DNA of 24,926 bases from positions 1 to 24,926 of IMG/VR virus record IMGVR_UViG_3300013101_000088, one strand, 5' to 3'. Below, piece by piece: positions 7,212-23,691 of this stretch (position 1 is the first letter of the stretch; each line of letters starts with the position of its first letter). The translations under genes were made by a program, and so were the position numbers. Under the pieces are notes generated by a model that was not told the origin of the DNA, did not search any database, and saw only the letters and a program-made list of their open reading frames with translations. This DNA comes from a virus.

Positions 7212-8330
7212 ATGAACAATAATAAAGAGTACGACTTAGTCGTATACATTGGGAGGTTTCAACCCTTCCACATTGCACACCAAAAAACAATAGAACGCGG
7301 TTTTGAATTAGCAGACAATGTCTTGGTACTTGTCGGTTCCGCGTACGGCGCGAGATCCATTGATAATCCATTTAGTTTTGATGAACGGAACATGATGATC
7401 TCCAGCACATTCTATGATGAATACTTCACATCAGCTACCGAGCATAATCTCGAGGTAAAGCCTGCAAGGGATTTTACTTACGATATTAATGCTTGGATTG
7501 CAAACACCAACAAAATTGTCAACGCACATGTAAAGGAAAATCTATTAGATGAAACCAAAATTGCAATTATCGGGCACGATAAAGATGCTACATCATTTTA
7601 CCTAAACCATTTTCCACAGTGGGCAGAGATCGAAATGCCAGCCTATCCTCCAGTAGGAGATACAATAGACGCAACTAAGATTAGGCGTTTGATGTTTGAA
7701 AAGAACTATCACTTTACTAAAGGCGTGTTGCCCTTCCCGGTATATGCAATGCTATTTGAAACCTACGATACCGCCTCGGGAATGGACGAGTCCTGGATTG
7801 ATACTCCGCAAGCCGAGTTAATGTTTCTAGAATGGGAGAACGATCAGGTCCAGAGAGCGAAATGGGATGGTGCGCCGTACCCTGTTCAATTTGTAACAGC
7901 AGACGCGGTTGTAATACAATCCGGCCACATTCTTCTTATTAAACGAGCAACCTTCCCAGGATACGGACTATGGGCAATGCCCGGAGGCTTTGTTGAATTT
8001 TGGGAACGATGCAGACCTGCAATCTTACGTGAGCTTTTTGAGGAAACTGGAATTAAGGTTCCGATAAAGGTACTAGACAGAGCAATTGATGGGTATGAAC
8101 ATTTTGACGATCCAAAAAGATCAACACGTGGTCGCACATACAGTCATACCTATCGCATTACATTAGATCCAACGCAGAAGTTGCCTAAGGTAAAAGGCGA
8201 TGGTAAGGAAACATTCGAAGCGAAGTGGTTTACATTGGCCGAATTTGATGAAATGGAAGGCGTGATGTTTGAAGACCATTATCACATTATTAAAACCATG
8301 CTGTCGCAGTCAGCTCGCAGCGTACGATAA
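7212..8330 (+). CDS. nadM: Bifunctional NMN adenylyltransferase / Nudix hydrolase
   Basis: The N-terminal domain (about 1-185) is a NadM-type nucleotidyltransferase that makes NAD+ from NMN and ATP. GRFQPFHIAH (14-23) is the HxGH-type ATP site, here with Ala for Gly, and FDERNMMISST (56-66) is the family's second signature. The C-terminal domain (about 225-372) is a Nudix hydrolase with a complete box, G259-x5-E265-x7-RELFEETGI. The same fusion is known in bacteria and phages, where the Nudix part is usually assigned to ADP-ribose or related nucleotides. With NadV it forms the two-step nicotinamide to NAD+ route. It has its own structured leader. The start ATG follows AGGGAGA. Confidence 0.93.
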   Translation: MNNNKEYDLVVYIGRFQPFHIAHQKTIERGFELADNVLVLVGSAYGARSIDNPFSFDERNMMISSTFYDEYFTSATEHNLEVKPARDFTYDINAWIANTNKIVNAHVKENLLDETKIAIIGHDKDATSFYLNHFPQWAEIEMPAYPPVGDTIDATKIRRLMFEKNYHFTKGVLPFPVYAMLFETYDTASGMDESWIDTPQAELMFLEWENDQVQRAKWDGAPYPVQFVTADAVVIQSGHILLIKRATFPGYGLWAMPGGFVEFWERCRPAILRELFEETGIKVPIKVLDRAIDGYEHFDDPKRSTRGRTYSHTYRITLDPTQKLPKVKGDGKETFEAKWFTLAEFDEMEGVMFEDHYHIIKTMLSQSARSVR

Positions 8331-8339
8331 GGAGTAGAT

Positions 8340-9068
8340 ATGAAATTTATCAAATGGGTAGGTACTACAATGAAAGAAGCAGTTTTTGAATTCTTAGCAC
8401 CACTCACAAGGTGGAGTCCGTTAGCTCAATTTAGGCTGGCAATTTTTCTCATTGTAATAGTCGCCATAGCAATGGGATTGTCATTTCCTGCAGAGGCAAA
8501 CACACCATTTGAGCCCGAGGTATGGGTGACCGAAGGTGCTGAAGAAGATGAACTCCCGGCACATCGAGCCATGGATTTGTTTGATGAGGAATCACACCCG
8601 GATGTATATTGCATTGCTCTCAATGTTTATTATGAATCCAGGACAGACAACTTAGCAGGCAAATATGCTGTGGCAGATGTTGTGTTAAATCGGGTTGAAG
8701 ATTCGTACTTTCCGAATACCATCTGCGAAGTAGTATACGATGCGATAATGCTTGAAAAATGGAAAACTGCTAAAGATCCAGATCTGCCCGATGAACAGCG
8801 AGAGTATTATCCAAAGCGCAATGGCTGTCAGTTTAGTTGGTATTGCGATGGCGCACCAGATGTGCCAATGCATGAAACGGCTTGGCTCGACGCGCAACTA
8901 ATCGCATACAACATTGTTAATCACGATCAGTTCCGGGGCATTACAGAAGGCGCGACACATTACCATGCCACCTACGTAACTCCAGATTGGGGCACAATGG
9001 AATGGCGCAAAGTGTATCACTTAATAGGAAGGATTGGTGAACACATTTTTTACAAATGGGTACATTAG
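8340..9068 (+). CDS. SleB-type cell wall hydrolase with N-terminal membrane anchor
   Basis: A Hydrolase_2 (SleB/CwlJ) family enzyme that cleaves peptidoglycan, so it is a likely endolysin or membrane-tethered wall enzyme. A hydrophobic segment (FRLAIFLIVIVAIAMGLSF, about 32-50) ends in AEA, which may be a signal-arrest-release anchor or a cleavable signal. The catalytic domain spans about 85-242. It begins CIALNVYYESR (the E of YYES fits the family's catalytic Glu) and continues with VLNRV, GCQFSWYCDG and GATHYHATYVTPDW. It lies 9 nt behind nadM with its own AAGGAG and separates the two NAD genes. Confidence 0.85.
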   Translation: MKFIKWVGTTMKEAVFEFLAPLTRWSPLAQFRLAIFLIVIVAIAMGLSFPAEANTPFEPEVWVTEGAEEDELPAHRAMDLFDEESHPDVYCIALNVYYESRTDNLAGKYAVADVVLNRVEDSYFPNTICEVVYDAIMLEKWKTAKDPDLPDEQREYYPKRNGCQFSWYCDGAPDVPMHETAWLDAQLIAYNIVNHDQFRGITEGATHYHATYVTPDWGTMEWRKVYHLIGRIGEHIFYKWVH

Positions 9069-9082
9069 GAGAAGAATTTATT

Positions 9083-9184
9083 ATGAATACAACATTTTGT
9101 ATAAATAATACTAACAAGCAATGCGGGGGGTCCGCACTGTTTCAAACCACTACATATATAGGGAGACTATATTATGAACTATAA
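9083..9184 (+). CDS. Possible 33-residue leader peptide overlapping nadV
   Basis: ATG 9083 follows AGGAGAAG at 9067-9074. The frame runs to a TAA at 9182-9184, past the nadV start (9174) in another frame, and the GGGGT-loop hairpin is inside it. Translating ribosomes would melt the hairpin and reach the nadV start, which could control initiation. The peptide itself resembles nothing known. It could also be a chance frame. Confidence 0.35.
   Translation: MNTTFCINNTNKQCGGSALFQTTTYIGRLYYEL
9100..9107 (+). promoter_or_regulatory. TATAAATA (T4-type late promoter motif) before nadV
   Basis: An exact TATAAATA about 67 nt upstream of the nadV ATG. A transcript starting just behind it would begin close to the GGGGT-loop hairpin, which makes the hairpin a 5'-end structure of the nadV mRNA. 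Activity is inferred. Confidence 0.4.
9122..9173 (+). promoter_or_regulatory. nadV leader: GGGGT-loop hairpin plus shared AGGGAGA block
   Basis: The stem TGCGG (9122-9126) with CCGCA (9132-9136) is closed by the loop GGGGT, followed by ACATATATAGGGAGACTATA and the ATG. The block from ACATATA through ATGAAC differs from the nadM leader by one base. The two stems differ in sequence but both pair, so structure rather than sequence appears to be kept outside the loop. Confidence 0.6.
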
Positions 9185-10571
9185 TAACATCAGTTTTATC
9201 ACAATGGCGGATAGCTACAAATATTCGCATCACTTACAAACAGAAGAAGGAACAGAATTCATTACATCTTACGGTCGCGCTCGAGGCGCAAAGGATCCAG
9301 ATTACAAATGGTACATTCCGTTTGGTCCGCAAATGGGAATTATGAAATATTTCCTTGCTCGTATTACGATGGAAGAAGTTGAATACGCTAAGGAGCTAGT
9401 TGAATCCCACGGCGAACCCTTCAACTACGAAGGCTGGAAATACATTGCCGAAAAGCTCGATGGAAAGCTTCCGCTGTCAATTGAAGCAGTCCCGGAAGGA
9501 ATGCCTATTAACATTGGCATGGTAATGTTCCAAGTTACAAATACCGTAAAAGGTTTTGCATGGTTGTCATCCTTTGCAGAAACTATCCTAATTAGGGACG
9601 TTGGTTGGTACGGCACAACTGTCGCAACTAACAGCTGGACTATCAAGCAGTTCCTTAAAGAGTACCATGAGAAATCTGGCTCAGTCCAAGGCGTTGATTT
9701 CAAATTGCATGACTTTGGTTGCAGGGGTGTTTCGAGCCATGAATCTGCAGAGATTGGTGGCCTCGCGCATCTTGTAAACTTTATGGGCACTGACACAATT
9801 CCAGCTTTACTTGCAGGACGTAAATACTACGACGAACACATGGCTGGTTTCAGTATTATTGCATCTGAGCACAGCACAATCACTCCGTGGGGTGAGGAAA
9901 ACGAAAACAAAGCTCACGCCAATATGGTGAGCCTGATCAAACCGGGCGGCATGGTTGCATCAGTAATCGACAGTTTCGATCCGCGCAGGACTGCACGTGA
10001 CATTATAGGCGGCGAACTAAAGCAAGCTATTATTGACAGCGGCGGAACATTTGTTGCTCGTCCAGATAGCGGCGATCCAACTACAATGCCAATTGAGATA
10101 ATCGAAATCCTCATGGAGCAATTCGGATACACAACTAACGACAAAGGTTACAGAACCTTACCGGACTGCATCCGCGTTATCCAAGGCGATGGGATTAACA
10201 AGGATAGCATCAAACAAATCCTTGCTAACCTTGACGAAGCTAAGATGACATTAGACAACTTGGCATTTGGAATGGGCGGGGCATTACTGCAAGGACTCGA
10301 TCGAGATACATTGCAGTTTGCAATGAAAGCGAACAGCACCACAGTTAACGGCGAACAAAAGGATGTATGGAAGCGTCCAGTAACTGACATGGGCAAAGCG
10401 TCACACGCAGGCGAGCAGGCATTAGTGTATGATGCTTATAACAAAGTGTTCGACACTGTCCGCAAAGATGAGCTCGGCGACCGCGAAAACATCATGCGCG
10501 AAATATACAGAGATGGTGAGCTGTTGATCAAAGATGATCTTGCAACGATTCGAGCGCGCTCTAATGTATAA
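9174..10571 (+). CDS. nadV: Nicotinamide phosphoribosyltransferase (NadV/NAMPT)
   Basis: The enzyme joins nicotinamide and PRPP to give NMN, the substrate of the adenylyltransferase encoded upstream. At 465 residues it has normal NAMPT length. Visible family landmarks are ADSYKYSHH (12-20), HDFGCRGVSSHESA (179-192), ASEHSTITPWG (230-240, with the catalytic His H233), VIDSFDPRRT, RPDSGDP and IQGDGIN. The gene is read from the second of two matching leaders. It is followed by a TATAAATA box overlapping its stop, then an intrinsic terminator. Confidence 0.95.
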   Translation: MNYNNISFITMADSYKYSHHLQTEEGTEFITSYGRARGAKDPDYKWYIPFGPQMGIMKYFLARITMEEVEYAKELVESHGEPFNYEGWKYIAEKLDGKLPLSIEAVPEGMPINIGMVMFQVTNTVKGFAWLSSFAETILIRDVGWYGTTVATNSWTIKQFLKEYHEKSGSVQGVDFKLHDFGCRGVSSHESAEIGGLAHLVNFMGTDTIPALLAGRKYYDEHMAGFSIIASEHSTITPWGEENENKAHANMVSLIKPGGMVASVIDSFDPRRTARDIIGGELKQAIIDSGGTFVARPDSGDPTTMPIEIIEILMEQFGYTTNDKGYRTLPDCIRVIQGDGINKDSIKQILANLDEAKMTLDNLAFGMGGALLQGLDRDTLQFAMKANSTTVNGEQKDVWKRPVTDMGKASHAGEQALVYDAYNKVFDTVRKDELGDRENIMREIYRDGELLIKDDLATIRARSNV

Positions 10572-17752: not shown

Positions 17753-17911
17753 ATGGACCGAATATTTAAATTGATTAATAATTTCGCAGAGAGGATAAGA
17801 ATAAACGCAATTGATTTGTTCGTGTTCTGCACCTTCGGAATTCCAATGTATATTGCGGTCTTCTTTTATAAGATTTTTGACAAAGATGAAAAAGATGAAA
17901 AAGATGAATAA
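17753..17911 (+). CDS. Small membrane protein with KDE repeat tail (52 residues)
   Basis: ATG 17753 follows the previous stop directly. A basic N-terminal helix (MDRIFKLINNFAERIRI) precedes one membrane helix (LFVFCTFGIPMYIAVFFY). The tail is KDEKDEKDE, encoded by a 9-nt unit (GATGAAAAA) in tandem, a site prone to slippage. TAATG couples it to the HNH gene. Confidence 0.55.
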   Translation: MDRIFKLINNFAERIRINAIDLFVFCTFGIPMYIAVFFYKIFDKDEKDEKDE

Positions 17912-18363
17912 TGCATTTAACTGAAGAATACATTAAGTTGCCACAAGAAGAACGGCAACAGCATTTAGATTTGTCCGAAGCGTGTTTATACCGCGGCGGG
18001 AATTCTACTTGTCACAAAGGTGTGTTAGCACAGTTTTTAAATACTGACATTGCGAAGCGTGGAGTTGATATATGTCATGCTTGCCATGACGGAGACTGCT
18101 CAAACCCCAGACATTTATATTGGGGAACGAGGAAAGAGAATGTGCAGGATGCAATTGAAGATGGTAAACATGTTGGCATTTGGCATTCTACTGTTAAGAA
18201 ATATGGTTATGAAGAAGCATGTAAAATGAATCAACGTGGCGACAAAGCAAAAGGTGGCCACGCAGGCAAGGGTAAAGTTTTAACAGAAGAGCATAAAGAG
18301 AAAATCAGGCAAGGAGTTTTAAAGAATTATGCGGGTATGGCGGAATCAGGCAGACGCAATTGA
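17911..18363 (+). CDS. HNH homing endonuclease overlapping tRNA-Leu
   Basis: A 150-residue HNH nuclease of the homing type. The core is CLYRGGNSTCHKGVL followed by ICHACHDGDCSNPRHLYWGTRKENVQDAIEDG (about 50-85), with Cys pairs and the NPxHLxxGT pattern of HNH_3 enzymes. A NUMOD3-like DNA-binding segment follows (LTEEHKEKIRQGVLKNY, about 124-140). The stop codon lies inside the tRNA gene that begins at 18331, so the last 11 codons are tRNA sequence. The start is coupled to the upstream gene (TAATG). This points to insertion at, and probably recognition of, the tRNA locus. Confidence 0.85.
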   Translation: MHLTEEYIKLPQEERQQHLDLSEACLYRGGNSTCHKGVLAQFLNTDIAKRGVDICHACHDGDCSNPRHLYWGTRKENVQDAIEDGKHVGIWHSTVKKYGYEEACKMNQRGDKAKGGHAGKGKVLTEEHKEKIRQGVLKNYAGMAESGRRN

Positions 18364-18416
18364 CTTAAAATCAATCGGAGAAATCCATCCCGGTTCGAGT
18401 CCGGGTACCCGTACCA
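18331..18416 (+). tRNA. trnL(uaa): tRNA-Leu (anticodon UAA), CCA encoded
   Basis: A full class II cloverleaf. The acceptor stem GCGGGTA pairs with TACCCGT (one G-T pair), followed by A73 and an encoded CCA at 18414-18416. The D arm is GCG/CGC around a loop with GG. The anticodon stem ATTGA/TCAAT holds the loop CTTAAAA with anticodon TAA (18366-18368). There is a long variable arm, and the T arm is CCCGG-TTCGAGT-CCGGG. The first 33 nt overlap the HNH gene. It reads UUA (and UUG) Leu codons, which A+T-rich phage genes use often. Confidence 0.97.
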
Positions 18417-20197: not shown

Positions 20198-20230
20198 AGT
20201 ATACACATTCTTAGAAATGTGTATAATACT
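20198..20230 (+). promoter_or_regulatory. Inverted repeat with TATAAT upstream of the RNA array
   Basis: AGTATACACATT (20198-20209) pairs with AATGTGTAT...ACT (20216-20230) apart from a 3-nt bulge. The 3' arm contains TATAAT (20222-20227), about 35 nt before the first RNA. It may be the array promoter with an overlapping operator, or a hairpin isolating the array from upstream transcription. No good -35 is visible. Confidence 0.4.
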
Positions 20231-20261: not shown

Positions 20262-20384
20262 TAGAGTGGTTACAGCAATAAAACTAAACCAAGAGAGCTG
20301 AGACGGGAAACCCAAGTACAGCAAGCACTAGATGAAATGCATCGGTACTGGTGTGAAAACTTAAAAACGGTCCAGCCCACTCTG
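20262..20384 (+). ncRNA. Y RNA-like RNA 1 (about 123 nt)
   Basis: The terminal stem is AGAGTGG (20263-20269) with CCACTCT (20377-20383), plus a U-G pair outside. The conserved element TTACAGCAATAAAA (20270-20283) follows the 5' strand at once. GCTG (20297-20300) pairs with CAGC (20373-20376), directly adjoining the terminal stem on the 3' side, so the conserved element is a one-sided bulge. Inside is a hairpin CCAAGTAC/GTACTGG (20312-20351) capped by GATG-AAATG-CATC. GTTAA follows the 3' strand. The layout equals RNAs 2 and 3. I see no tRNA-like arm here. It is probably a partner RNA of the Ro60-like protein encoded at 20858. Confidence 0.75.
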
Positions 20385-20400
20385 TTAACCAAATTAGGTT

Positions 20401-20647
20401 TTGGATAGATACAGCAACAAAAAATTACTGATGAAGTTGATGTAGAACCACTGTAGTCCAGTAAGATTAAGTACCTTCGGCCAAATACGTTGATAGCGGA
20501 TTGGGGGACAAGCAGGTTTTCAACAGCCCGGTGGATGATTATCATAGACGCCCGGGTGCCGAGGTACGCCAAAGCACACAAAGCAAATAGATACGTGCCA
20601 TTAAGTTGGGTCTTCGGATAAAGCGTATACGTGATATAACTATCCAG
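20401..20647 (+). ncRNA. Y RNA-like RNA 2 (about 247 nt)
   Basis: The terminal stem is TGGATAG (20402-20408) with CTATCCA (20640-20646), followed on the 5' side by ATACAGCAACAAAA (20409-20422) and on the 3' side by GTTAA. The inner part is larger than in the other two. It has a TTACTG/CAGTAA hairpin (20425-20464), a long helix GTACCT-T-CGGC with GCCGAGGTAC (20471-20481 / 20558-20567) enclosing hairpins GTTGA/TCAAC (20489-20524) and CCCGG/CCGGG (20527-20556), and a 3' hairpin ATACG/CGTAT (20591-20628). It has the same ends as RNAs 1 and 3 with a different interior, as expected for RNAs sharing one protein partner. Confidence 0.72.
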
Positions 20648-20667
20648 TTAAATTAAAAGTACGAATT

Positions 20668-20793
20668 TAGGATTATTACAGCAACTAAATTATAAGCCAA
20701 ACGGGCATATGCAGGTTCGAGTCCTGTCGCATCACAAATTGTGATGTGTGGTGGAACTGGTCTACACACCCGTCTATATATAATATAATCCTG
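20668..20793 (+). ncRNA. YrlA-like Y RNA with circularly permuted tRNA domain (about 126 nt)
   Basis: The terminal stem is AGGATTA (20669-20675) with TAATCCT (20786-20792), followed by TTACAGCAACTAAA (20676-20689) and, 3' of the stem, GTTAA. A second stem ATTATA/TATAAT (20689-20694 / 20779-20784) leads to a permuted cloverleaf. Its anticodon-stem 3' strand is ACGGG (20701-20705), then a 5-nt variable loop. The T arm is GCAGG-TTCGAGT-CCTGT (20711-20727). The acceptor strands CGCATCAC and GTGATGTG (20728-20748) are joined by an AAATT loop. After TG comes the D arm GTG-GAACTGGTCTA-CAC (20751-20767), then the anticodon-stem 5' strand CCCGT (20769-20773). Bacterial YrlA RNAs are known to carry a tRNA-like domain, and a Ro60-like gene follows 65 nt downstream. 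Confidence 0.85.
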
Positions 20794-20802
20794 TTAACTT
20801 TT

Positions 20803-20848
20803 ACTCCGTGTCAAAATTTAACTGGTAACAATTACCGAACAAAGGAGT
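20803..20848 (+). promoter_or_regulatory. Leader of the Ro60-like gene with possible ribosome-site pairing
   Basis: AAAGGAG (20841-20847) is a strong ribosome binding site 10 nt before the ATG. A small hairpin GGTAA-CAA-TTACC (20824-20836) lies directly upstream, and ACTCC (20803-20807) could pair with GGAGT (20844-20848) to hide the site. The leader begins where RNA 3 ends, so RNA processing could affect translation. This is inference. Confidence 0.4.
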
Positions 20849-20857
20849 TCAATAATA

Positions 20858-22282
20858 ATGACATTCAAGACAGCAGCACAGAACACACAAGAAGAAACTC
20901 GTACCGAAAACGGTATGAAGACCTATACCTCAAGCTTGAACGCTTGTGTAGATTTGTTCTTCACCATTGGCGCAAGCCGTGGTAAGGATATCACTGCACG
21001 ATTCGAAAAGGCTGTCCGAGAAGATGCAGAACTTGCAAGTCAGATTTTGCTTTGGTCACGTGACGTCCGTGGTGGCGCAGGTGAACGTCAAATCTTCCGA
21101 GACATGCTAGTCAACATCGAGGAAAACCACCCAACACTTTTGGATCCAATCATGAAGGCAGTGCCAGAACTTGGTCGCTGGGATGACCTGTTGGTCCTTA
21201 AAACTACAAAACATCGCGCGGCAGCATTTGACATGATCGGACAAGCACTTCGTTCCGGCGACGGGCTTTGCGCTAAGTGGATGCCACGTAAAGGTGACAC
21301 TGCGGTTGAATTGCGTAAGTACCTAAGTTTCACTCCGAAGCAATATCGTAAGACTTTGGTTAGTTTGACAGAAGTTGTCGAAACCCAAATGTGCGCGAAG
21401 GAATGGGATAAGATTAATTTCAACCACGTTCCGTCTGTAGCATCTTCACGTTACCAGACAGCGTTCCACCGCAATGCGGATGAACAGTACCAGGAATACA
21501 AGGACAACTTGTCTAAGGACGATGGTTCCGCAAAGGTTAACGCTGGAGCAGTTTACCCGTACGATGTAATCAAGCCAGCACTTGGCGGACGTTACGGCGA
21601 CGAGATTATCACAACCAACAAGGAAGTGATCTTGGCGCAGTGGGAAGCATTGCCTAACTACGTTGGCGACGAAAAGATTTTGCCACTAGTTGACACATCT
21701 GGTTCTATGTCTTGGACACCGATTCCAAACTCAACCCTAACTCCAATTGATGTTGCGTTGAGCCTAGGTCTTTACTTGTCTGACAAAAACACCGGAACCT
21801 TTAAGGACATGTTCCTTAACTTCAGTTCCGACTCTAAGATTAACATCTTGGGTGGCGACTTGTTTGCGAAGTTGCGTCAGCTTAAGGGCGCGTCATGGGG
21901 TGGTAGCACTAACCTTGCAAGCGCGTTCCGTTCAGTACTGAACGTTGGTACACAGAACAAGGTCGCAGCAGAAGACATGCCGGGTTACATTTTGATTTTG
22001 TCAGACATGCAATTCAATTGTGTTAGTAACAATGACGCAAGCGCAATGCAGATGATTGAAGACCAGTACGCGGCAGCAGGTTACGAGGTTCCTAAGGTAG
22101 TATTCTGGAACTTGGCAGCTCGCAGCGATAACGCACCGGTTCGTTTCGACAAGAGCGGCGCGGCTTTGGTAAGCGGATTCAGCCCAGCAATTATGAAGTC
22201 TATTCTTGCTGCACAGGATTTCACACCGAAGGCTATCATGCTTGACGCAGTTAACATTCCGCGTTATAGCGTATCTAATTAA
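20858..22282 (+). CDS. Ro60-like RNA-binding ring protein (DUF2828/TROVE-like with vWA)
   Basis: The 474-residue protein has the two-part design of Ro60. A helical-repeat RNA-binding half (about 1-265) carries LLWSRDVRGGAGERQIFRDM (65-84), a DUF2828-type signature, and GRWDDLLVL. A C-terminal von Willebrand A domain has a full metal site: DTSGS (279-283), T351 in GGSTNLASAF and D383 in ILSDMQF. In known systems Ro60 forms a ring that binds misfolded RNA ends and Y RNAs; Y RNA tethers it to partners such as PNPase. Y RNA-like RNAs lie immediately upstream, as in bacterial Ro60 loci. DUF2828 is a distant relative rather than a canonical TROVE protein, so RNA binding here is inferred. A strong terminator follows. 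Confidence 0.82.
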   Translation: MTFKTAAQNTQEETRTENGMKTYTSSLNACVDLFFTIGASRGKDITARFEKAVREDAELASQILLWSRDVRGGAGERQIFRDMLVNIEENHPTLLDPIMKAVPELGRWDDLLVLKTTKHRAAAFDMIGQALRSGDGLCAKWMPRKGDTAVELRKYLSFTPKQYRKTLVSLTEVVETQMCAKEWDKINFNHVPSVASSRYQTAFHRNADEQYQEYKDNLSKDDGSAKVNAGAVYPYDVIKPALGGRYGDEIITTNKEVILAQWEALPNYVGDEKILPLVDTSGSMSWTPIPNSTLTPIDVALSLGLYLSDKNTGTFKDMFLNFSSDSKINILGGDLFAKLRQLKGASWGGSTNLASAFRSVLNVGTQNKVAAEDMPGYILILSDMQFNCVSNNDASAMQMIEDQYAAAGYEVPKVVFWNLAARSDNAPVRFDKSGAALVSGFSPAIMKSILAAQDFTPKAIMLDAVNIPRYSVSN

Positions 22283-22507: not shown

Positions 22508-23086
22508 ATGACGATTTTAGCTGGGCCGGATTTTTTAGTAGTAGCTTTAACAAAAACAGGAACAACTAGTTTAGAAGCTTGGACAGAGTCTAATGCCCTT
22601 CTAAATATTGCCTCGCGTCAAGATAAAATCGATATGAAAGATGATTCCACAATACCTATATATGCAGCTTACCGCGATCCCTTCAGCCGCGCCCTAGCAG
22701 GAGTATACGAAGGATTAAAACATCATGCTATTCGGGATGATGTGACAATTGACAGCTATGTTGCAGACTGGCTACGAAATCCAACACTTGAAAGAATTGA
22801 TGTAAAAAACCATACCCAGTTAATTGTAGATAGGTTCCGGGCTTGGTCTTACGAATCATTTACTTGGTTTCATTATTCTCAGCTCAATGACCTTCCTGCT
22901 TATATAAACCAAACTCACCAATTGGATCTTGTTCCAATTGATACCAAGCATGTTCAAGGCCCCGAACGGGACGAAATGTTTGGTAAAGACTTTGAGAACC
23001 TTACCCCACAGGCAACCGACTTTCTATTAGAACATATAAAACGAGAACATGTTCCGAAAATCTTTTTATCGTTAAAAATAATTTAA
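22508..23086 (+). CDS. Sulfotransferase-like protein 1
   Basis: 192 residues with the two PAPS-binding motifs of the sulfotransferase family. The 5'-phosphosulfate loop is LTKTGTTSLEAW (14-25). The 3'-phosphate motif is AYRDPFSRALAGVYEGL (54-70), with the Arg and Ser of the RDPxSR pattern. Members move sulfate from PAPS to sugars, lipids or proteins. This copy is short, so only the core fold may be present, and the acceptor is unknown. The stop overlaps the start of a paralogue (TTTAATGCAG). A modification of host surface or virion is possible but unproven. Confidence 0.7.
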   Translation: MTILAGPDFLVVALTKTGTTSLEAWTESNALLNIASRQDKIDMKDDSTIPIYAAYRDPFSRALAGVYEGLKHHAIRDDVTIDSYVADWLRNPTLERIDVKNHTQLIVDRFRAWSYESFTWFHYSQLNDLPAYINQTHQLDLVPIDTKHVQGPERDEMFGKDFENLTPQATDFLLEHIKREHVPKIFLSLKII

Positions 23087-23691
23087 TGCAGAACGGTCAC
23101 ATCTGGCAAGGACCTGGATTTTATATAGTTGCCCCGCCGAAAGCAGGTTCCAGAAGTATAGAAGACTGGTGCCAAAGAAAAGCACATGTTAATTTAATTA
23201 CAAGGTGCAGCGAAAACGAGTTAGCAAAATCACGTAAACGTGATCAAGTTTTTCCAGTCTATGCTGCATGGCGGGATCCGTATTCCCGCGCCGTTGCAGG
23301 AATATACGAAGGATTAACATATCACTCAAAGCTAGAAGGAAAAACAAAAGAAGAATGTATTTCGGCCTGGTTAGAGAATCCGTCGTTTGTTGAAAAACAT
23401 TCTGTGAAGTGGCACACTACAAGACTAATAGATCAGGTCCTAGGACCAGCGCCCTGCGAATCATTTAATTGGTTCCACTACTCTCATCTTAACAAACTTC
23501 CCGATTATATAAACCGAATACACCACCTGTCGTTCTTACCAATGAAAACTAAGAATTCCCATGGGGACGAAAGGGACAAGTTATTCGGCAAAGATTTTAA
23601 GAAAGAGTATCCGCACGTTGACAGGCTAATAAAAGCATTTATTCATAATGAATTTATGCCAAACACCTTTTTAGACTTAGATAAACCCTAA
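23086..23691 (+). CDS. Sulfotransferase-like protein 2 (tandem paralogue)
   Basis: 201 residues, clearly related to the preceding product along the full length. It shares GPGFYIVAPPKAGSRSIEDW (9-28) against GPDFLVVALTKTGTTSLEAW, WRDPYSRAVAGIYEGL (62-77), ESFNWFHYSHLNKLPDYIN and a C-terminal GPERDEMFGKDF-like block. The phosphosulfate loop differs (PKAGSRS for TKTGTTS), so substrate choice or activity may have diverged. The pair probably arose by duplication and may work as a heterodimer. An inverted repeat follows the stop. Confidence 0.7.
   Translation: MQNGHIWQGPGFYIVAPPKAGSRSIEDWCQRKAHVNLITRCSENELAKSRKRDQVFPVYAAWRDPYSRAVAGIYEGLTYHSKLEGKTKEECISAWLENPSFVEKHSVKWHTTRLIDQVLGPAPCESFNWFHYSHLNKLPDYINRIHHLSFLPMKTKNSHGDERDKLFGKDFKKEYPHVDRLIKAFIHNEFMPNTFLDLDKP

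Follow-up and report, generated by a model that had tools for sequence, protein, structure and literature searches.

A Ro60-like gene and the RNAs in front of it

The window, i.e., the whole 24,926-nt stretch of viral DNA that was analysed, carries on its plus strand a gene (20858..22282, phrog_850) for a 474-aa Ro60-like ring protein with DUF2828 and DUF7788 vWA domains, preceded by three RNAs of approximately 123–247 nt within positions 20263–20794. All three are built in the same way: one strand of a 7-bp terminal stem is followed by exactly 2 nt, the heptamer ACAGCAA and a core particular to each RNA, after which come the second stem strand and GU (together, the frame). In RNA1 (20263..20385, plus strand) the stem is formed by 20263–20269 and 20377–20383, with ACAGCAA at 20272–20278 and GU behind the stem. 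RNA2 (20402..20648, plus strand) is the large member, with the stem at 20402–20408/20640–20646, ACAGCAA at 20411–20417 and an outer pair that is U-A instead of A-U. RNA3 (20669..20794, plus strand) has its stem at 20669–20675/20786–20792, ACAGCAA at 20678–20684 and a permuted tRNA-like core. On the 3' side of the six core pairs follows UGUUAA (RNA1 and RNA3) or AGUUAA (RNA2), whose first base makes the seventh pair. The initial annotation had described at least three tandem RNAs with common ends and differing interiors; its coordinates were correct, and a strict architecture scan of the entire window recovered exactly these three on the plus strand, none on the minus strand and none in shuffled sequence.

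RNA1 was additionally supported by conservation of its frame across loci, and RNA3 by its fold and a sub-threshold alignment to YrlA. The folding energies were modest (z of -1.05, -0.11 and -2.61 for RNA1, RNA2 and RNA3, respectively), and single-sequence energy was rejected as uninformative for RNA1 and RNA2; the case for the RNAs is, therefore, comparative and not energetic. Counterparts of RNA2 with 237–261 nt, the same frame and the same place were present in five other phage loci (L002, L040, L052, L064 and L079). Some of these have internal helices with compensatory changes, and the copy in the window is divergent. A sigma-70-like promoter (TATACA-16-TATAAT, 20200..20227, plus strand) may lie about 36 nt before RNA1, but it rests on a consensus scan only, and a weak one, with 8 sites found against 5.0 in shuffles.

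The Pfam scan of the protein gave DUF2828 (PF11443; 1.6e-29), DUF7788 (PF25043; 1.7e-40) and a weak VWA match, but no match to the TROVE profile (PF05731), and the PHROG match was to phrog_850 (E 4e-147), a family called RNA-binding protein. Relatives were found in 681 phage records. The AlphaFold model, built from 47 related sequences (pLDDT 91), is a HEAT-like ring closed by the vWA domain. All seven significant Foldseek matches in the PDB were Ro60/TROVE structures, VIA-align superimposed 408 of the 474 residues on Ro60 with bound RNA (1yvp; Z 20.4, 3.9 A), and the top 10 places of the structure ranking were taken entirely by Ro60 entries, while a PDB profile search reached TROVE chains weakly, via the metal-site region (E 0.26). 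The annotated Ro60-like gene thus withstood a test that had been set beforehand as capable of refuting it. The vWA metal site, also proposed by the initial annotation, was intact, with D279-x-S-x-S (D279, S281, S283), T351 and D383 invariant in 47 sequences. The protein is, accordingly to the model, a predicted Ro60-fold protein, yet it stands outside the TROVE sequence family as currently curated. The Ro60 of Thermus phage phiLo (PDB 9l5y, 2025) is likewise a phage protein with this fold (Z 14.8); in contrast to the window protein it is a TROVE-domain protein, and the likeness is structural only, with 15% identity. One phage homologue was annotated as similar to Arabidopsis T31B5.30, which makes eukaryotic relatives of the DUF2828/DUF7788 protein likely.

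Association of the frame with the gene in phages and prokaryotes

Of 120 independent loci sampled from phages and bacteria, 90 had the frame next to the gene, often in tandem copies, which yielded 146 framed RNAs with the consensus of a 7-bp terminal stem, a 2-nt spacer (in 141 of them), WCAGCAA and GU after the stem. In IMG/VR the stretches upstream of relatives contained the 9-mer GTTCAGCAA 42 times, against 1.24 expected. At 80 bacterial and archaeal loci the frame was detected 100 times in forward and 5 times in reverse orientation, whereas shuffles gave 4. Its position was almost always immediately 5' of the gene. The stem test spanned the 120 independent loci and included a swap control, in which stems were exchanged between loci. 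A matching 3' strand followed 53 of the 83 phage upstream motifs (8.7 with swapped and 4.7 with scrambled stems) and 87 of the 150 bacterial ones (27.3 and 5.4, respectively), the reverse strand of these loci having only 4 (phage) and 3 (bacterial) motifs. Frame detection used six stem pairs and left the seventh, outer pair free on the 5' side; this pair was A-U in 78 cases, U-A in 8 (window RNA2 among them), G-U in 3 and other in 2 (Fisher p 1.5e-8). Furthermore, compensatory changes were present at all seven frame pairs among 45 short members. Loss of the stems in related phages would have spoken against the initial annotation; instead, they are kept, with covariation.

The association also held in the opposite direction. 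The exact pattern TTAGGATAGNWWCAGCAA had at least 120 matching stretches in viral contigs, and, among the matches listed, phrog_850 was encoded in 18 of the 20 motif-bearing records of at least ~60 kb (once as a fragment at a contig edge); incompleteness of the two contigs without the gene is not excluded. A control core, CGACAA, matched 9 stretches only, and none of those 9 records, which were mostly smaller than the motif-bearing ones, encoded the gene. Taken together, the comparisons show that a protein with a predicted Ro60-ring fold is co-inherited with RNAs that have a fixed frame and differing, often tRNA-like cores.

An Rfam scan at gathering thresholds of 10 phage loci returned tRNAs only, and a scan of 13 further loci (12 bacterial or archaeal genomes and one Listeria phage) returned tRNAs, some of them inside frames, together with one group II intron and one ZTP riboswitch, both away from frames. 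Hence, none of the curated families accounts for the frame at threshold. No framed RNA adjoined the gene in five classical TROVE loci (from the phylum of G067), a weak negative result, with only about 1.5 kb searched per side.

The initial annotation regarded a multi-RNA array beside such a gene as unusual. This did not hold, since arrays commonly accompany members of the family, both in phages that infect many different hosts and on bacterial chromosomes. Two framed RNAs each were present in Campylobacter phage Los1, Enterococcus phage Porthos and Synechococcus phage BUCT-ZZ01, three in Listeria phage LMTA-34, four to five in Vibrio phage BUCT194 and seven in Aeromonas phage LAh_9, while Staphylococcus phage CoN_Ph4 (three), mycobacteriophage LeBron (three), one Felixounavirus (four) and Klebsiella phage KP13-16 (five) had them downstream of the gene. 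In some large phages the copies were scattered among tRNA genes or located tens of kb from the gene. By the rule used, seven or eight of the 19 named gene-bearing phages had no frame; no convincing one was found in KVP40, Aeh1, DLP6, Ochrobactrum phage OC, Serratia phage BF, Milchi and Ci1. A recurrent framed RNA of 146–150 nt, with GTGAGTT...CTCAC and either AAAAAGTAG or AAAAAGGCA near its 3' end, was located approximately 90–160 nt upstream of the Ro-like gene in six loci (L036, L041, L048, L054, L078 and L080). In a Woesearchaeota archaeon (L241) a DUF2828 relative had a framed 57-nt RNA upstream, and a TROVE-like gene was present in the same genome.

tRNA-like cores and resemblance to known RNAs

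A T-arm motif was present in 29 of the 146 framed RNAs, compared to 1 in reverse complements and 1.2 in shuffles. In RNA3 the T-arm mimic is evident from the sequence (GCAGG-UUCGAGU-CCUGU, 20711..20727) and is followed on the same plus strand by an acceptor-like hairpin deduced from the fold (20728–20748) and by a D-arm-like stretch at ~20750–20770, indicated by the sub-threshold YrlA alignment. The description of this RNA as a tRNA mimic with a permuted cloverleaf was, therefore, upheld. The same order of T-arm, hairpin and D-arm, characteristic of YrlA, and closure of the core by the terminal stem were found in L002, L009, L028, L046 and L078. In Clostridia the arms had the canonical order, and either Rfam or ARAGORN called a tRNA inside the frame. 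Many other cores were without tRNA similarity. In Cronobacter phage S13 the core of one framed RNA (L300:5116-5248) reads as a circularly permuted tRNA in which a loop connects the CCA and acceptor strands. The same phage (L300:4857-5099) and Citrobacter phage Ci1 (L082:4973-5086) have 'tRNA' genes with about 40 inserted nt in the anticodon arm; the two inserts share ACGCAAACTGAYAAGTTTGTATTCAGCA, reminiscent of the frame motif.

With the YrlA model (RF02553; cut-off 69 bits) RNA3 scored 20.6 bits and the best relative, from L078, 33.7 bits (E 8e-6 on 321 nt), both far below the cut-off. Contrary to the expected kinship of the shared element with YrlA, ACAGCAA does not belong to the YrlA consensus and is nearer to the Class I RNA of Dictyostelium. 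The known analogue is the RNA repair operon rsr-yrlBA-rtcBA of Salmonella (PMC7790460), where, as here, a Ro60-fold protein has several small RNAs beside its gene, at least one of them with a permuted tRNA-like domain, and rtcB follows in many bacterial relatives of the window gene. Different from Rsr, the window protein has DUF2828/DUF7788 and no TROVE profile match, and, different from YrlA, the terminal frame consists of the stem, WCAGCAA and GU, often in more copies. An rtcB homologue was present in about 37 of the 80 bacterial loci; in about 35 it came close behind the gene, mostly some 50–150 nt after it. A Listeria phage had an rtcB homologue near the gene and Serratia phage BF an RNA ligase upstream of it; no ligase adjoined the Ro-like gene in the window.

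The best Rfam model for the frame was Dictyostelium Class I RNA (RF01414; curated cut-off 41.5 bits), with E 0.028 on the window array and 24.8 bits for RNA3. Among 37 gene-bearing phage records it matched 30, at best with E 4.2e-7 and 36.4 bits, and no record passed the cut-off. No match was obtained in 9 smaller control records, and the 4 matches in 14 bacterial and archaeal control genomes were at chance level. Among the extracted matches, 18 of 20 fell on the frame and one more on a frame with a single changed letter. Class I RNAs start with AAG, end with CUGU and have a 6-bp covarying stem, whose 5' strand is adjoined by an 11-nt motif, and they were described as unique to dictyostelids (PMC7919456). 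Features in common with the framed RNAs include a short end-joining stem, in which the first G is paired with the last C, an A preceding and UGU following this stem, ACAGCAA directly inside its 5' strand, a variable core, a size of ~60 nt for the short members, a high copy number and compensatory stem changes. Class I RNAs also have an upstream DUSE promoter element, a eukaryotic feature that a phage would not be expected to carry. The spacer between the stem and ACAGCAA, however, is 2 nt here and 3 nt in the Rfam consensus, and Class I RNAs are known to be bound by the RRM protein Rnp1A, without any known partner of the Ro type. With no phage RNA above the cut-off and a spacer off by one nucleotide, membership in Class I is not claimed. 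A link, through either homology or a common protein partner, remains a live hypothesis. That the framed and the Class I RNAs form a single family, so that the latter would be the Y-type RNAs of a DUF2828/DUF7788 Ro-like protein, is a tentative proposal with slightly less in its favor than against it. If true, Class I RNAs, so far without a full mechanism, would gain a Y-type role, and the frame resemblance offers a direct test of their partner and origin.

A putative Ro-type particle and its alternatives

In Y RNAs, it is the lower stem to which Ro60 binds. By analogy, and without binding data, the Ro-like protein may bind the frame, so that a single protein could display several interchangeable tRNA-mimic cores. 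We consider it likely that the locus encodes such a Ro-type RNP, in which the ring binds the frame and shows the exchangeable mimics for tRNA surveillance, although binding, expression and role are all inferred. During infection the particle might act in tRNA surveillance, repair or as a decoy: the mimics would recruit tRNA-handling enzymes or, alternatively, act as a gate that bars damaged or misfolded tRNAs from the ring, or else serve as decoys for host anticodon nucleases, the last being suggested by shape alone. In many bacterial chromosomes rtcB comes after the gene, which points to cleaved tRNAs being repaired or cleared.

The decoy function can also be taken as the entire explanation, with the framed RNAs shielding phage and host tRNAs from anticodon nucleases and the Ro-like protein only stabilising them. 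The tRNA-like part of YrlA has been proposed as a possible inhibitor of such nucleases (PMC7790460), and anticodon-like hairpins (5-bp stem, 7-nt loop NU-NNN-RN) were present in 41 of 127 short phage copies compared to 1.35 in dinucleotide shuffles, or, after clustering at 60% identity, in 8 of 54 clusters compared to 0.5, with seven different anticodons. However, the window's own RNAs have no obvious anticodon-like loop, and the permuted forms, being without an anticodon arm, could not serve as nuclease substrates. The bacterial loop test is confounded by T-loops, which fit the same pattern, and its signal was discounted. On balance, this explanation is rather unlikely, albeit it cannot be dismissed.

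Much less support remains for explanations in which the elements are not separate RNAs. Their usual position 20–200 nt before the start codon would suit cis-acting leaders for translation or stability of the Ro-like mRNA, which we nevertheless judge improbable: copies are located downstream of the gene in Felixounavirus, LeBron and the Klebsiella and Staphylococcus phages, others lie between tRNA genes or at distances of tens of kb, and the cores differ freely between copies. Least credible of all is a chance location near the gene of decayed tRNA genes or of a mobile repeat. It is true that tRNA-rich regions often harbour the arrays and that pieces of tRNA occur in some of these, but the frame is under selection, as seen from the covarying 7-bp stem and the 2-nt spacer (141/146), many cores are without tRNA similarity and the motif tracks one protein family.

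Chen et al. reportedly described in 2014 likely Y RNAs with tRNA-like domains close to Ro60 for over 250 species of bacteria and phages, and phage Y RNAs as such are, therefore, not new. No description of the RNAs reported here was found in a search of the open literature on DUF2828 and phage Y RNAs that did not extend to the key Y RNA papers. Judged by this literature and Rfam 15, there seems to be no precedent for the DUF2828 clade, the WCAGCAA frame or the likeness to Class I RNAs, and the RNA partnership appears to be a little-studied one that is widespread in phages and bacteria. It would provide the DUF2828/DUF7788 proteins, which in hundreds of phage records are annotated as hypothetical or at most 'RNA-binding' or 'Ro-like', with a predicted RNA partner and its exact recognition element. 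Ro60-Y RNA biology would thereby gain a second protein clade, one that is common in phages and Clostridia and has a link to rtcB. A further suggestion is that a single scaffold lets phages present interchangeable tRNA mimics, as a testable counter to tRNA-cutting defences of the host.

Three observations concern other genes in the window. Two adjacent genes (22508-23086 and 23086-23691) are 41% identical, i.e., a tandem duplication, and had no Pfam or PHROG match. A gene resembling His-Me-type homing endonucleases (17911-18416) overlaps the start of tRNA-Leu(UAA). Finally, the region 7212-10571 contains phage NAD salvage genes, consisting of a cytidylyltransferase-Nudix fusion and a nicotinamide phosphoribosyltransferase.
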